Positions 25,608 through 44,141 of a DNA stretch of 44,141 bases are shown in pieces. Numbering within the stretch: the stretch's first letter is position 1; each line of letters opens with the position of its first letter. The translations under genes and the position numbers were made by a program. The stretch lies in the IMG/VR virus record IMGVR_UViG_3300030060_002971, positions 5,314 to 49,454 of that record; one strand, given 5' to 3'. The notes beneath the pieces were generated by a model, which worked only from the letters and a program-made list of their open reading frames with translations, was not told the origin of the DNA and ran no database searches. The DNA is from a virus.

Positions 25608-28600
25608 TTATGGCGCCCATGCTGGTACGTAGTATGTAGTACCATTTGACGCAACAAATGCTAAGTAACCTTGTACATTACCTGCACCTATCATTGGTGG
25701 GTGGTCAAACGTTACTGGTCCTGAGGCTGGGCTAATCACATTAATTGGTCCTCCCATCGAATCAATTGTTCCAGCAGATGCGTCTGCACTAAATACTGGT
25801 GCACTTGCTCCACCACCACCACCGCCAGATGGTCCTGTAGGTCCAGCAGGTCCCGTAGGTCCTGTAGCTCCAGCAGCTCCTTTCTGTCCTTTACCACCAG
25901 CACTTCCTGAACTTCCTTGTGGTCCAGCAGGTCCTTGTGGTCCAGTTGGTCCTGTTCCGCTAGGTCCTTGAGAACCTGTAGCACCTTTATCACCTTGTGG
26001 TCCTGTACCACCGACTTCACCCTTTTGTCCTTTAGAACCAGAGCCTCCACCACCTTCTTCACCTTTCTGACCTTTACTGCCTTGTGGTCCAGTTGGTCCA
26101 TTAGGTCCAGCAGGTCCTTGAGGTCCTGTAGCTCCTGTAGCTCCTTTGTCTCCAGCAGAACCTGTGCTTCCTTGCCCACCTTGTGCACCTTGTGGTCCTT
26201 GTGGTCCTGTAGCTCCGGGGTCTCCTTTTTGACCTTTACCTCCACCGCCACCGCCAGAACCTTCTTCTCCTTTCTGACCTTTACCACCTTGTGGTCCAGT
26301 TGGTCCAGCAGGTCCTTGTGGTCCTGTGCTTCCTTGAGGTCCAGTGCTTCCTTGTGGTCCTTGAGGTCCTGTACCACCGGGTGCTCCTTTAGCTCCTGAG
26401 GCTGCGAATGTCACCTGTACTGTTCTACCTGATGAGAATATATTACTTACCGAGGTATCACTCTTAGCTTTTACAGATGATATTGTAATAAACACATGAG
26501 TATTAGCCATATCTGTTTGATAGCCTGTAGACTCATCTGTTGTTAAAATTATAAAATCAGTATTATCTTCCATGGATACAAAACGTATATCTGTTGGTGA
26601 ACCATCATATGCGTCTAAATAGTCATATAATGAACTTGAACCAGCGTTCTGGTCGAAAACTGAAAATGATACAGCAGTAATACTTGCTGCTGTTCCATGA
26701 TTTAATCTAAATTCTCCAGAACCGGGGTCGCCCATTGTTGTGCTTGTATCAAAGTTAAATTGTAAACCAGCAGGTTCACCAGTTGGTCCTTTGTCACCAC
26801 CAGCACCTTTTGCACCTTGTGGTCCAGCAGGTCCAGCAGGTCCGTCTGGTCCATCAGGTCCTGTAGCACCTTGAGCTCCTTGAGCTCCTTGAGCCCCTTG
26901 AGCACCTTGAGGTCCTTGACCTCCAGTAGCACCTTTGTCTCCACCAGCACCTTTCGCACCTTGTGGTCCAGCAGGTCCAGCAGGTCCATCAGGTCCATCA
27001 GGTCCTGTGTTTCCTTGAGGTCCTTGAGGTCCTGTGCTTCCTTGAGGTCCTTGTGGTCCAGCTGCTCCTGTAGCACCTTTATCACCAGCTGCTCCTGTAG
27101 CACCTTTATCACCAGCTGCTCCTGTAGCTCCTTTAGCACCAGCAGTTCCTGTAGCTCCTTTGTCTCCATCTGGTCCAGCAGGTCCATCAGGTCCATCAGG
27201 TCCTGTGTTTCCTTGAGGTCCTTGTGGTCCTGTGCTTCCTTGAGGTCCTTGTGGTCCAGCTGCTCCTGTAGCACCCTTATCACCAGCTGCTCCAGTAACA
27301 CCTTTGTCACCAGCAGTACCTTTGTCCCCTTGAGGTCCAACTGCTCCTGTAGCTCCTTTTGCACCTTGTGGTCCAGCAGGTCCAGCAGGCCCAGCAGGTC
27401 CAGCAGGTCCGTCTGGTCCATCAGGTCCATCAGGTCCTGTTGCACCTTGAGCTCCTTGAGCACCTTGAGCACCTTGAGGTCCTTGACCTCCAGTAACACC
27501 TTTGTCACCAGCAGCACCTTTGTCACCAGCAGTACCTTTAGCTCCTGTAGCTCCTTTGTCTCCAGCAGTTCCTTGAGGTCCATCAGGTCCGTCAGGTCCT
27601 GTAGGTCCAGCTGCTCCAGTAACACCTTTGTCACCAGCAGTACCCTTTTCACCAGCGGCACCTTTGTCTCCCTGTGGTCCAACCGGTCCAACAGCTCCAG
27701 TAGCACCTTTTGCACCTTGTGGTCCTGTATCTCCAGTATCTCCTTGTGGTCCTTGTGGTCCAGCTGCTCCTGTAGCACCTTTGTCACCAGCTGCTCCTGT
27801 AGCACCTTTATCACCAGCTGCTCCTGTAGCTCCTTTAGCACCAGCAGTTCCTGTAGCTCCTTTGTCTCCATCAGGTCCGTCTGGTCCTGTAGGTCCATCA
27901 GGTCCTGTCGCACCTTGAGGTCCTTGTGGTCCATCAGGTCCAACAGCTCCTGTTGCTCCTTTGTCACCACCAGCACCTTTTAATCCTTTATCTCCTTGTG
28001 GACCTTGGTCTCCGGTTGCTCCTTTGCCTCCTTTATCTCCAATAGGTCCTTGTGGTCCAGTTGCACCAGTTGCTCCTTTAGAACCTTGAGGTCCTGTAGG
28101 TCCAGTTGGTCCATCAGGTCCAACAGCTCCTTGTGCACCAGTAGCACCTTTACTACCTTGTGGTCCTTGGTCTCCTTGTGCACCAGTGGTACCTTTGTCA
28201 CCAGCAGCTCCTTGAGCACCCTTGTCTCCACCAGCACCTTTCTCTCCTTGTGGTCCTTGAGCACCTGTAGCTCCTTTGTCCCCATCAGGTCCAACAAGTC
28301 CTTGTGCACCAGTAACACCCTTGTCACCTTGTGCACCTTGAGCTCCTTTATCTCCTGTAGCTCCTTTATCTCCTGTTGTACCTTGTGGTCCTTGAGGTCC
28401 AGTAGGTCCTGTAGGTCCTGTAGGTCCTTGAGCGCCAGTAATACCCTTATCACCTTGTGGTCCAACTGCTCCTGTAGCACCTTTGTCTCCTTGAGGTCCT
28501 GTATCTCCAGTAGGTCCCTGAGCTCCTGTAGCTCCTTTATCTCCTTGAGGTCCATCAGGTCCTGTCGCACCTTGTGGTCCTTGTGGTCCTGTAGCTCCTG

Positions 28601-30935
28601 TAGCTCCTTTATCACCTGTAGGTCCTTGTGCACCAGTAGCACCTTTGTCTCCAGCAGTACCTTTATCTCCAGTAGGTCCTTGAGCTCCAGTTTGTCCTTT
28701 AGCTCCTTGAGTACCTTGTGGTCCTTGAGGTCCATCAGGTCCATCTGGTCCTGTAGCACCAGTTGCACCTTTATCTCCGTCTGGTCCTGTAGGCCCTGTA
28801 GTTCCAGTAGGTCCTTGAGCGCCAGTAACACCCTTATCACCTTGTGGTCCATCAGGTCCAACAGCTCCTGTAGCTCCTTTAGTACCTTGGTCACCTTGAG
28901 GTCCTTGTGGTCCTTCAGCTCCTGTAGCACCTTTGTCACCAGCAGCTCCTGTAGCACCTTTTGCACCAGCAGTACCTTGTGGTCCTGTACTTCCAGTAGG
29001 TCCTTGAGCTCCTGTAGTTCCTTTGTCTCCAGCTGCACCTTTATCACCTTGCGGTCCTGTAGGTCCATCAGGTCCAACAGCTCCTGTAGCTCCTTTAGCT
29101 CCTTGTGGTCCTTGAGGTCCAGTAGCACCAGTAGCACCTTTGTCTCCTGTATCACCAGTGGCACCTTTGTCTCCAGCAGTACCTTTGTCCCCTTGAGGTC
29201 CAGTTGGCCCTTGAGGTCCAACAGGTCCTTGAGGTCCTGTATCTCCTTTCATTGAAAGGGAAAAATAAACATCATCTTCATCAGAGAAGGTAGAAGTGAC
29301 TGCACCACTTGCCCCGCCCTCATGTGAAACTGCAACGTTTCTGTAATCTCCTTGGTCAGAACCATTGCCAGTCATTTCGAAAGTAACATAGTTAGTTATG
29401 TCATCTTTCTTTTCTAATTTAATTCTATTACCTGTTACTAACATATCTGCTAGAATATTATCTAGTGTACCACCACTCTCATCATCTTCGAAAATAGATA
29501 ATTGTGTAACGTTTGCTAGTGTAGCATGGTTTAAAACAATCTCTCCGTTTGTTGATGGTGCAGTAGTTGTATCTGTTAAATCTACATGCATTAAGAAAGT
29601 AGAAGCAGGTAATGAAACTTCTCCTTTAATACCTTTATCTCCTTGTGCTCCTTTGTCTCCTTGAGGTCCAGTAGCACCAGTAGCTCCTTTACCACCTTGT
29701 GGTCCTGTAGCTCCTGTAGCACCTTTGTCTCCTTGAGCACCTTGAGGTCCTTGAGCGCCTGTAGCTCCCTTATCTCCTTGAGGTCCTGTAGCTCCTGTAG
29801 CTCCTTTGTCTCCAGCAGTTCCTTGAGGTCCAGTAGGTCCGTCAGGTCCAGTAGGTCCTTGAGCACCTGTGGCACCCTTATCTCCTTGTGGTCCAGTAGC
29901 ACCTTGAGGTCCTTGTGGTCCTTCAGCGCCTGTTACACCTTTTAGTCCTTTATCACCTTGAGGTCCAGTAGCTCCTGTAGCTCCTTTATCTCCATCAGAA
30001 CCATCACCGCCATCAGGTCCTTGTGGTCCTGTTGGTCCTGTAGTTCCTTGAGGTCCTTGTGCACCAGTAGCACCTTTATCTCCAGTTGAACCTTTATCAC
30101 CTTGAGGTCCTTGAGCTCCTTGTGGTCCTTGGTCTCCTTGAGGTCCTGTATCTCCAGTTACACCTTTCTGACCTTTGTCTCCTCCAGCACCTGTAGCACC
30201 CTTATCTCCTTGTGCTCCACCAGCACCCGTACCACCTTTTTCACCGGGTTCTCCTTTTCCACCTTGTGGTCCAGTAGTTCCTTGTGGTCCAGTAGGTCCT
30301 TGAGTTCCTTGTGGTCCTGTATCTCCAGTTACACCTTTCTGACCTTTGTCTCCTCCAGCACCTGTAGCACCTTTATCTCCTTGTGGTCCACCAGCACCAG
30401 TAGTACCTTTGTCGCCGGGTTCTCCTTTACCACCTTGTGGTCCAGTAGGTCCTTCAGCACCAGTAGCTCCCTGTTGACCTTTATCGCCTTGTGGTCCAGT
30501 TGCACCAGTAGTTCCTTTATCTCCTAAACTACCTTTTTCTCCTTGTGCGCCTTGTGGTCCTGTAGGTCCAGTTGGTCCTCCGTCACCTGTAACACCTTTC
30601 TGACCTTTGTCTCCTTGTGGTCCACCGGGACCTGAAGGCCCGTCACCACCCTTTTGACCTTTATCGCCAGTAGTTCCCTTGTCTCCTGTTACACCTTTAA
30701 GACCTTTATCTCCTTGGTCTCCTTGTGGTCCAGTAGGTCCTTGAGTACCTGTACTTCCTATATCTCCTTTCTGACCTTTGTCACCTAGTTCTACAATGCT
30801 TGGACTACCATCATCTTTTTTAGTAAATAGTTTACCATCATACGTATTGATTGCCAATTCACCTAATTCTAAATCTGCATTAGAGGGCACGTCTGACCCC
30901 TTTGCACTACGTTTGTGGTAAATTCTATTTGCCAT
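25608..30935 (-). CDS. Giant collagen-like fibre protein (1775 residues)
   Basis: The first 50 residues ([10 protein letters not shown]...[16 protein letters not shown]) are the head domain common to phage tail-fibre proteins. Three collagen blocks of Gly-X-Y triplets follow: about residues 51-438, 562-1385 and 1511-1705, mostly GDKG, GATG, GPQG. They are interrupted by two related non-collagenous modules (about 439-561 and 1386-1510), and the protein ends in a compact domain ([11 protein letters not shown]...YYVPAW). Without Hyp, such helices rely on Pro and on Lys-Gly-Asp/Glu salt bridges, both plentiful here. It should form trimeric fibres on the virion. Long open frames on other strands here are repeat shadows. 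Confidence 0.85.
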
Positions 30936-40005: not shown

Positions 40006-41052
40006 TCATACTTCTAATACCCATCCACTTTCTTCTATGTCTCCGTTACCCCAATTTGTAGAGTAACCTACATATTCGTCTGTACCTTCTTCTTCATTAT
40101 ATCCGAAATAGTCACCATCTCCATCATAATCTGCATAATATGATACATAATAGACCCAGTAACCTTCGTGTATATCATCAAAATTATCTTCTAATGGTGT
40201 TTCAAACAGTTCATCATACTCAAACCAGTGTTCATCACCAAACCAGCCTGAAATATTGAAGAATACTTGTGTATAGACGTAATTATCATAATAAATTGAT
40301 TTGTTTCCGTTCTCATCTTCATCAACCATAATGTGTACCAAATCATAATACACCATTATAGGTAGAGGTTCTTCCTCATCATCACAGTTTGTATCGAAAT
40401 CCATAAAGAAATCTAAACTATGATTGGATGCTCTGGACACATTCCCATGAGAAAGACCGTTATATGCATACATATCAGTATGATTACAGTGATTTTCTTC
40501 ATTTTCGTAGTCACAAGAGCCATCATCTTCTGTAGCACGTTCGTTATAGTTGTTCGCATCTACGTCCATACAGCCATAGACGGTCTCATTTGTCTGTGTT
40601 TCGTTATTTCCAGTGCCATTTTGATTTAAAATGTTACATCGCCCATTGTCATGTGTCGCCTGAGGGTCATAATTAACCGCTTCAGGGTCCATACATCCAT
40701 AAACAATCACTACAAAATTACAACTTCCATCATCAAAAGTAGCTTTTGGGTTATAATTAGTGGCATTATCTTCTAAACAGCCACCAATTGGGCCAATATC
40801 CTCTTCTCCATTCAAAAATTCATGGATTATAGACATATTAGCGCCACCACTAAGAATTGCTAACATAACCACGGTGATTATAGTACCAATTTTCTTACCG
40901 ACTTGAGTTTCACCTATTTTATCAGCAGCTTTGCCAATAGTTTCAAAGAGTTTTTCTTCATCTTCTTCAGGTTTTTTTGGACCGCCAATTCCCAATATCT
41001 CTTTTTCTTCATCAGAGATTACAGAAATAGCTCCATAATCATCACGCGCCAT
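40006..41052 (-). CDS. Membrane-anchored surface protein with Cys repeats and many sequons
   Basis: 348 residues. The cytoplasmic N-terminus (1-54) is charged; one transmembrane helix follows at about 55-72 (IGTIITVVMLAILSGGANM). Three copies of a marine Cys repeat (GC-[ML]-[DE]...NY...A..D[DN]G[SR]C) lie at about 91-110, 118-138 and 160-180. About ten Asn-X-Ser/Thr sites follow the helix. The C-terminal half is very acidic and Tyr-rich, with a DYDGDGD calcium-binding-like loop. Such repeats are common in secreted proteins of marine bacteria and archaea. Likely a virion or host-surface glycoprotein. The promoter at 41076 starts transcription at the ATG, so it may be leaderless. Confidence 0.65.
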   Translation of the reverse strand: MARDDYGAISVISDEEKEILGIGGPKKPEEDEEKLFETIGKAADKIGETQVGKKIGTIITVVMLAILSGGANMSIIHEFLNGEEDIGPIGGCLEDNATNYNPKATFDDGSCNFVVIVYGCMDPEAVNYDPQATHDNGRCNILNQNGTGNNETQTNETVYGCMDVDANNYNERATEDDGSCDYENEENHCNHTDMYAYNGLSHGNVSRASNHSLDFFMDFDTNCDDEEEPLPIMVYYDLVHIMVDEDENGNKSIYYDNYVYTQVFFNISGWFGDEHWFEYDELFETPLEDNFDDIHEGYWVYYVSYYADYDGDGDYFGYNEEEGTDEYVGYSTNWGNGDIEESGWVLEV

Positions 41053-43349: not shown

Positions 43350-43454
43350 ATGAAACAAACTCGAACTAAAATGGCATCCGCAATGCTTGCAAAGCTTAAG
43401 GCAATGCAAGCCATCAACTTGGCCAAGAACCGCCAAGGGGGTAGCGGAGCTTAA
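43350..43454 (+). CDS. 34-residue basic amphipathic peptide
   Basis: MKQTRTKMASAMLAKLKAM followed by QAINLAKNRQGGSGA. GAGGT lies about 8 bases before the ATG and a promoter sits 35-45 bp upstream. The repeated K/A/M heptads predict an amphipathic helix, with a Gly-rich end. Function unknown; it might bind RNA, DNA or the membrane. The support is a good promoter and ribosome site, not homology. Confidence 0.45.
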   Translation: MKQTRTKMASAMLAKLKAMQAINLAKNRQGGSGA

Positions 43455-43500
43455 AGTGCAATATATAAAGGCCCTCGATGCTTATATAGTAATTTGAGGC

Positions 43501-43514
43501 AAACCTTTATATAC
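43501..43514 (+). promoter_or_regulatory. TATA promoter
   Basis: AAACCTTTATATAC, close to the element before the reductase. Expected start near 43535, about 12 bases before the ATG at 43547. A weaker CTTATATA lies at 43483. It may also initiate the structured RNA downstream. Confidence 0.6.
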
Positions 43515-43546
43515 TTTGTCGTTAGAGTTAGAATAGAGGAAAAGAC

Positions 43547-43651
43547 ATGGGTAAATTTAGAACCGGTGGTGGAAGGCGCCACATAGCAAGCAAAGACGCA
43601 CGCTTACTTTGGAAGCAAGTAAAACAAATGAGGAGGTTATTACATGGATAA
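43547..43651 (+). CDS. 34-residue basic peptide
   Basis: MGKFRTGGGRRHIASKDARL then LWKQVKQMRRLLHG. GAGG lies a few bases before the ATG, and a TATA box 35-45 bp upstream. It is 30% Arg/Lys, suggesting nucleic-acid binding. Its stop overlaps the next ORF start (ATGGATAA). Confidence 0.4.
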   Translation: MGKFRTGGGRRHIASKDARLLWKQVKQMRRLLHG

Positions 43652-43712
43652 GTATCAATCATCCTTACTAACATGGTTAGTAGGGGTATCATTCGCAACT
43701 AGAAAATTGTAA
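43644..43712 (+). CDS. 22-residue hydrophobic peptide
   Basis: The ORF encodes MDKYQSSLLTWLVGVSFATR, then KL. AGGAGGT lies about 6 bases before the ATG, the best ribosome site in this region. The middle is hydrophobic enough for a short membrane helix. Its 3' part is also one arm of a predicted stem (43683-43689 with 43712-43718), so it may instead be the 5' edge of the structured RNA. Confidence 0.35.
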   Translation: MDKYQSSLLTWLVGVSFATRKL

Positions 43713-44019
43713 TACCCCCCGGTATACTTTTCGGAAAGGGGAACTAAGGACCTATCGACCGGTCCTTGACCTAAAAAGATGATAATAGCAAAATAATATT
43801 GCAACCCTTTCCCTTACAATTATTGGCCATAATCGTAGGTTAATACCCTACGTTAAAGCGAGGGACGCTTGACAAGAATGGCGAAGTGCAAAATAGAATA
43901 CATATCAAGAGGCTTCGGTCTAGGGTATGTATTACTAGAGTGTTCGCGACACACGCGGTTGGAAGCCCGTGGTTAGCATGAGTGGGTTCTCACGACCTAC
44001 ATCCCTCAACCTTATTTTT
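43683..44019 (+). ncRNA. Candidate large structured RNA with no recognised family
   Basis: A chain of perfect stems in a region without long ORFs. 43683-43689/43712-43718 (7 bp). 43733-43740/43805-43812 (8 bp), enclosing 43746-43752/43761-43767 (7 bp). 43834-43839/43847-43852 (6 bp). 43856-43860/43866-43870. 43897-43904/43926-43933 (8 bp), with an inner C(UUCG)G tetraloop at 913-918. 43940-43943/43949-43952. 43957-43961/44007-44011, enclosing 43979-43982/43989-43992. A G-U pair and the UUCG loop favour the + strand. A T run at 44014-44019 could end it. Confidence 0.5.
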
Positions 44020-44038
44020 TCTGGCTGCAAATGTTTTT

Positions 44039-44067
44039 CCGTACGCCCCACAATGCGGGGCGTATGG
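44039..44067 (+). other. Strong GC-rich hairpin
   Basis: CCGTACGCCCC (44039-44049) pairs with GGGGCGTATGG (44057-44067) in an 11-bp stem with one G-U pair and a 7-base loop. It follows a T-rich stretch and may be the last domain of the structured RNA or a separate transcription-related stem. Confidence 0.5.
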
Positions 44068-44128
44068 CTTGGTGAGTCTACATATTACCTATACCTTTGT
44101 TCCAAAAAGTGCGTTCGGAAACCATATT

Positions 44129-44141
44129 AGGGTATATAAGT
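44129..44141 (-). promoter_or_regulatory. Possible TATA promoter at the window edge
   Basis: ACTTATATACCC on the - strand resembles the promoter at 43085 (TTTATATACCCC) but the consensus part upstream is cut off by the window end. It could also be a + strand element for the next gene. Confidence 0.3.

Follow-up and report, generated by a model that had tools for sequence, protein, structure and literature searches.

GOLLD, a noncoding RNA of ornate structure and unknown function, is encoded by phages and often found beside tRNA genes; its copies form homo-oligomers through a symmetric kissing loop with switching palindromes (PMC12286853). ROOL is a phage RNA found near tRNA islands that assembles from RNA alone with kissing loops, and OLE forms a homodimer that consists of RNA alone and has a palindromic kissing loop, L9.3, that covaries (PMC12286853). 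For GOLLD and OLE, the palindrome-switch signature was used as evidence of homo-oligomerisation (PMC12286853). GOLLD is longer than 800 nt and assembles into a 14-mer cage, ROOL is a ~660-nt nanocage and OLE is a large bacterial RNA. The phi29 pRNA is a small viral structural RNA that also oligomerises via loop-loop pairing, through two unlike complementary loops and for a packaging motor of another type than the one encoded here. Among complex marine viral RNAs, manA RNA has been described from cyanophages and gamma-proteobacteria.

Here we describe a previously unclassified RNA whose predicted folded shape is preserved in about 20 related viruses. It lies in a 44,141-nt stretch of DNA from a marine virus (the window), which corresponds to positions 5314-49454 of a 49,454-base IMG/VR record; the right ends of both coincide. 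We found that this RNA, module A, is a viral structured noncoding RNA outside every Rfam family tested, several-fold smaller than OLE, GOLLD and ROOL and structurally unrelated to them. Rfam 15 has no hit in the window at gathering thresholds, and at E ≤ 10 nothing relevant appears there (the sole hit, E = 9, is meaningless); the GOLLD, ROOL and OLE covariance models each lack a match in the window at gathering score or at E ≤ 10. An earlier note on this DNA, which had likened the region to GOLLD and ROOL and could match it to no known RNA, was right on both counts: module A is a member of neither, but some relatives carry tRNA-Glu directly downstream, and the P5 loop of module A has the covariation signature of a symmetric, palindromic kissing loop. 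Whereas GOLLD RNAs run to more than about 800 nt with a conserved 3' region, the module A core spans 181 nt in the window and has a different fold. It has no sequence or structure match to ROOL and no match to OLE or phi29 pRNA, and the signature it shares with OLE is known here from covariation alone. The manA model (RF01745) likewise has no match in the window; manA is a separate family found in the same islands, and its matches in relatives are separate neighbouring elements.

Two conserved modules in the structured region

The earlier note had read 43683-44067 as one non-coding chain of stems. The chain is present and exceeds chance: the interval folds at -127.9 kcal/mol, compared with -101.6 ± 6.2 kcal/mol for dinucleotide-shuffled controls (z -4.2; reached by 0 of 100 shuffles). 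The minus strand folds well too (z -5.4), so folding energy alone cannot choose the strand. Across module A homologues, however, 106 cells are G-U and 6 are A-C, which identifies the + strand as the RNA, as proposed. The structured viral RNA at window positions 43727-44008 (+) is real, and it consists of two conserved structured modules, B and A, and not of a single RNA (Table 1). The proposed interval starts too early: its first 30 nt belong to a conserved ORF of 22 aa (tiny ORF 2) and form its last part. The 16 variants of this ORF in relatives differ mainly synonymously, and it is therefore protein-coding, while the remainder of the interval does hold the RNA modules; a proposed stem at 43683-43690/43710-43718 falls outside the conserved RNA. 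The supposed pseudoknot proved to be P1, the nested closing helix of module A. The interpretation as a novel structured viral RNA is supported, with its pseudoknot and its start coordinate in error, and it withstood each of the three refuting checks named in the note (covariation among homologues, folding energy compared with dinucleotide shuffles, and an Rfam search). Other elements of that description were located as expected: the long-range 8-bp stem is the outer stem of module B, enclosing the inserted hairpin and a 4-bp stem, the C(UUCG)G tetraloop is at 43913-43918, the TATA element lies upstream, and the T run ends at ~44020. The terminal hairpin has counterparts in relatives but is outside the core.

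Table 1. Features of the RNA locus in the window (first 22 rows) and of RNA elements in related loci (L numbers)
Feature	Position	Strand	Support or remark
Second TATA-like element	43480-43489	+	sequence
TATA-like promoter element of the transcription unit, CTTTATATAC	43505-43514	+	sequence
Tiny basic ORF 1, 34 aa, MGKFRTGGGRRHIASKDARLLWKQVKQMRRLLHG	43547-43651	+	SD-like AGAGG ahead
Tiny ORF 2, 22 aa, MDKYQSSLLTWLVGVSFATRKL; 5' limit of the RNA	43644-43712	+	coding conservation
Module B, long form	43733-43812	+	z -3.6
Module B outer stem, GGAAAGGG/CCCTTTCC	43733-43740/43805-43812	+	
Module B inserted hairpin	43745-43768	+	
Module B near-invariant 25-nt core, GATGATAATAGCAAAATAATATTGC	43778-43802	+	inner stem GCAA/TTGC
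Module A, helices P0-P7	43818-44008	+	~190 nt
Small hairpin ahead of P0, ATTATTGGCCATAAT	43818-43832	+	by eye, no formal count
P0 hairpin	43834-43852	+	both-side changes in 5/6 pairs
P1 5' strand, GAGGGA	43860-43865	+	pairs with 44002-44007
P1 3' strand, UCCCUC	44002-44007	+	
P2 hairpin, conserved loop UUGACAAGAAU, then GAAG	43866-43883	+	100% of cells paired
P3 5' strand	43886-43889	+	pairs with 43976-43979; 100% paired, 3/4 pairs changed on both sides
P4 long hairpin, C(UUCG)G cap in the window	43894-43937	+	both-side changes in outer 10/12, inner 3/3 pairs
P5 hairpin, proposed homodimer kissing loop	43940-43952	+	loop palindrome UCGCGA at 43944-43949
P6 hairpin, CGCGG UUGGAAGC CCGUG	43954-43971	+	97.9% paired, both-side changes in 3/5 pairs
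P7 hairpin, GUGGGU/ACCUAC	43982-44000	+	86% paired
Conserved linker AACCTTAT into T-run	44008-44021	+	sequence
3' hairpin, CCGTACGCCCC..GGGGCGTATGG	44039-44067	+	counterparts in L007, L167, L191
Next promoter GGTATATAAG, upstream element AAAAAGTGCGTTCGG	44131-44140	+	
manA RNA	L029 1718-1903, L042 993-1164, L077 2315-2485, L069 5370-5549, L078 3319-3499	-	
manA RNA	L193 10625-10796, L196 5389-5569, L165 10032-10215, L070 5429-5611	+	
Module E	L042 2270-2289, L044 7112, L078 3534, L036 1777	-	
Module E	L160 3995	+	
~300-nt sequence behind B or E	L193 9529-9820	+	
~300-nt sequence behind B or E	L042 2270-1950, L077 3500-3190	-	
RNA-like sequence upstream of compact B	L188 7500-7725, L190 5750-5916, L195 2000-2196	+	

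Module B is defined by a core with the consensus GATGA[A/T]AATAG[C/T]AAAATA[G/A]TATT[G/A]C, found at 28 distinct sites. The sequence of the outer stem varies freely around this near-invariant core, and in the 18 sites of compact form 117 of 126 outer-stem cells are paired (82.8 ± 3.5 when shuffled). The inner stem covaries from GCAA/TTGC to GTAA/TTAC. The window carries the long form, which has the inserted hairpin. Within the core, an A-to-T change at position 6 (43783) accompanies a G-to-A change at position 19 (43796) in the window, L179 and L191, a co-change that suggests a tertiary contact of the internal loop with the hairpin loop. Another conserved, RNA-like sequence (CCGGCTACC..GACTCCGGTCTT..GGGGCCAAAGGTGAC) lies directly upstream of compact module B in three relatives. 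P2 and module B were also inspected by eye for kink-turns and C/D boxes, and both readings were dropped.

The module A fold is conserved among related viruses

Relatives were fetched via the PD-(D/E)XK nuclease and the terminase, pattern scans added more, and the RNA region is kept as conserved noncoding sequence in the fetched relatives. We aligned 17 distinct module A sequences and built a covariance model (R1), which found 20 type-1 homologues (E 1e-59 to 1e-12). Although built without any type-2 RNA, R1 also gave at least 13 hits to diverged type-2 RNAs in 1.1 Mb (E 1e-9 to 0.02). Among 17 viral records to which R1 was applied, 10 have exactly one copy, and the 7 without a match are all records of unknown completeness. 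Searches of a phage record collection with DNA and protein turned up no homologous RNA. Pattern CGCCNGACAANNRANGGCGAAG matched 32 times in genome contigs, all in bacteria-titled records and in about the number expected by chance, and was ignored; extra pattern matches L250-L253 fail R1 and were taken as chance.

In module A, P1 closes P2, P3 and P7, P3 encloses P4, P5 and P6, and P0 lies upstream. A structural alignment of the 20 sequences, several of them close relatives, showed changes on both sides in 35 of 47 pairs. Pairing holds in 96.0% of its cells, compared with 74.0% when shuffled (0 of 500), in an alignment that was fitted to the structure; pair counts taken earlier, from the first alignment by sequence, have the same pattern. 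When the partner is slid by 1-3 columns, pairing falls to at most 43%, and the covariation score is 0.553 compared with 0.188 shuffled and at most 0.104 slid. All five measures calculated on this alignment top all 500 shuffles. P7 pairs less completely than other helices because subtypes differ by a one-base register, and P2 with its conserved loop is common to module A and type-2 RNAs. The hairpin ahead of P0 varies, by eye, among GCCC/GGGC, GCTG/CAGC and GCCG/CGGC. A stacked covariation search of the module A alignment found nothing convincing in the way of pseudoknots beyond P0-P7. Taken together, these sequence comparisons show a module A fold, encoded on the + strand, that has been conserved in evolution.

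The P5 loop and what module A may do

The P5 loop has seven bases. In 16 of 17 sequences these are N plus a palindrome of six bases, which occurs in six versions: UCGCGA (the window), UCUAGA, UCAUGA, UCCGGA, UUCGAA and CUAUAG. The exception, L070, has ACCGGA and keeps only 4 palindromic bases; the central four are palindromic in all 17 sequences, again in six versions. None of 100,000 column shuffles of the loop reached 16 (mean 3.1), and the runner-up among 6-nt windows of the whole module A alignment is 24% palindromic. By parsimony on a tree made with P5 masked, the loop has undergone at least 7 changes. Predicted energies of the 6-bp duplexes range from -3.8 to -8.7 kcal/mol. Neighbouring bases of a hairpin loop cannot pair together, so the conservation of such a centre as a palindrome indicates pairing of one molecule with another; the same middle-dinucleotide argument was applied to OLE L9.3 and GOLLD L21a (PMC12286853). 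These observations strongly suggest that module A forms a homodimer through a P5 kissing loop. A palindrome scan of the type-2 RNAs found no comparable covarying palindrome. Six-way palindrome switching offers a ready-made evolutionary test of RNA homodimers beyond the three large bacterial or phage RNAs of known quaternary structure, and since module A is small (~190 nt), its dimerisation is directly testable in vitro.

We consider it fairly probable that module A is a trans-acting viral noncoding RNA that homodimerises via its P5 loop. It would be transcribed from the TATA promoter together with the two tiny ORFs and module B, and would end at the U-run in the window; in the five relatives with tRNA-Glu, tRNA processing could set the end. 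Two copies would then dock by their palindromic P5 loops, as the symmetric kissing loops of OLE and GOLLD do, and module A would act in trans during infection as a structural RNA or RNP scaffold. The downstream side, which holds tRNA-Glu, another module, a T-run or a new promoter, argues for action in trans rather than in cis.

It is unlikely, though the idea carries some weight, that modules B and A are instead a cis-acting 3' untranslated element that stabilises or regulates a short tiny-ORF mRNA, with any dimerisation incidental. Both modules come directly after the tiny ORFs on one strand, with no promoter between, the 22-aa ORF is under coding constraint, and compact module B adjoins tiny ORFs elsewhere too (L187, L195). 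However, the upstream ORF differs among relatives while the RNA core is unchanged, the module order (B then A in the window) is swapped to A then B in L033 and L162, and a multi-helix core with palindrome switching exceeds the needs of a stabiliser.

That module A is a packaging-motor RNA like phi29 pRNA, oligomerising through its loops to help the terminase, is improbable. A symmetric palindrome produces dimers, not the head-to-tail ring of pRNA, and module A is missing from the seven records of unknown completeness mentioned above. Module A is indeed a small viral RNA that probably makes a loop-loop contact, and it sits beside the structural operon, divergent from it, with the large terminase ~5 kb away, but that terminase is of the T4 type, and we know of no T4-type packaging motor that needs RNA.

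We give slightly less credence still to a riboswitch or other 5' leader controlling a downstream gene. The fold is complex and has conserved unpaired bases, and manA RNAs, which share these islands, were first proposed as possible cis-regulators (PMC2864571); nevertheless, no consistent downstream gene was found among relatives, where the 3' side is occupied by the elements listed above, including new TATA promoters. A self-cleaving ribozyme or diverged intron remnant would fit a multi-branched junction core with conserved single-stranded bases, yet is very improbable, as the window has no Rfam ribozyme or intron match at E ≤ 10 and gene halves are absent from the flanks. Least credible is a DNA-level feature (a replication origin or cruciform region), for although both strands fold well and a divergent promoter region adjoins the locus, the G-U/A-C asymmetry is an RNA-strand signature that strongly disfavours it, and the element moves together with tRNA and other RNA genes.

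Transcription units, RNA islands and the virus

For the trans-acting RNA that we favour, the promoter appears to be of archaeal type. The promoter stretch 43458-43549 is found many times over in relatives. A recurrent layout, with AAAAAGTGCGNNCGG ~15-20 bp upstream of TATATAAG and then tandem CTTTATATAC boxes ~25 bp apart, drives tiny-ORF cassettes in the window (43458-43549 and 44090-44141), L007, L039, L166, L165 and L073. Basic tiny ORFs occupy the same place as ORF 1 in L004 and L029. Tiny basic protein families of 27-34 aa are encoded just upstream of RNA modules (window 43350-43454 and 43547-43651; L004 1757-1653 and 1552-1469; the L029 contig) and are possible candidates for RNA-binding partners of the modules.

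The order of the unit is promoter, tiny basic ORF, tiny ORF 2 (where present), manA (where present), B and A, followed by tRNA-Glu, another module or a T-run and then a new promoter. In L004, L029, L033, L070 and L196, tRNA-Glu begins 10-15 nt downstream of module A, or of module B if that is the second of the two; the window itself has no tRNA gene. The transcript in the window probably ends at the T-run after module A, and the promoter at 44131-44140 indicates that the downstream gene has its own. In most relatives a linker of the AACCTTAT type comes after module A. Linkers of the (A/C)ACCTTAT type, which may serve in processing or as single-stranded binding sites, are found behind modules A and B and behind manA (window 44008-44015, L004, L029, L033, L039, L166 and L167).

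At least nine loci in these viruses carry manA RNA matches above gathering score, and in L029 the match lies immediately 5' of module B. Where manA loci were read in detail, an RNA-like element comes next and no metabolic gene, which argues against a riboswitch role for manA in these viruses. In the open-access literature, tRNA and manA were the only structured-RNA families that we found described for this group. A further element, module E, is a stem of variable sequence around an invariant 20-mer, TTTCAGGGGCCGAATCCCGA; transcripts that are homologous apart from this module have either B or E at one and the same 5' position (L193 9504 compared with L042 2289 and L077 3523). Behind module B or E lies a conserved noncoding sequence of ~300 nt (..GTGACCTG..CCATACGCCA..CCGGTCGATG..), which is probably a further structured RNA. 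Tentatively, and with rather less confidence than in the module A homodimer, we propose that these viruses, which are probably archaeal, carry islands of interchangeable RNA domains (A, B, E, manA and other large RNAs), shuffled among tiny-basic-protein and tRNA transcripts, with at least one domain self-assembling by an evolvable palindromic loop, and that together these would make up a modular viral RNA or RNP machine with no described counterpart. In these islands manA does not lie in a 5' UTR, which is relevant to the long-standing question of its function.

Genes for a T4-type large terminase, a PD-(D/E)XK nuclease and a fragment of a class II ribonucleotide reductase lie in the window, as do HK97-type capsid matches. 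The best terminase match in the phage record collection is to Halogranum tailed virus 1 (23%), and the capsid protein has no match there. TATA-type promoters together with the terminase and gene affinities suggest an archaeal host, possibly Poseidoniales. Family-B DNA polymerase is present in eight long relatives, but no chaperonin was found in them, and for that reason we do not claim the label magrovirus. Window positions 25608-30935, in the structural operon, encode a collagen-like Gly-X-Y repeat protein of 1775 aa; window positions 40006-41052 encode a 348-aa protein with YGCMDxxAxNYxxxAxxDDGSC motif repeats and an acidic C-terminal half.
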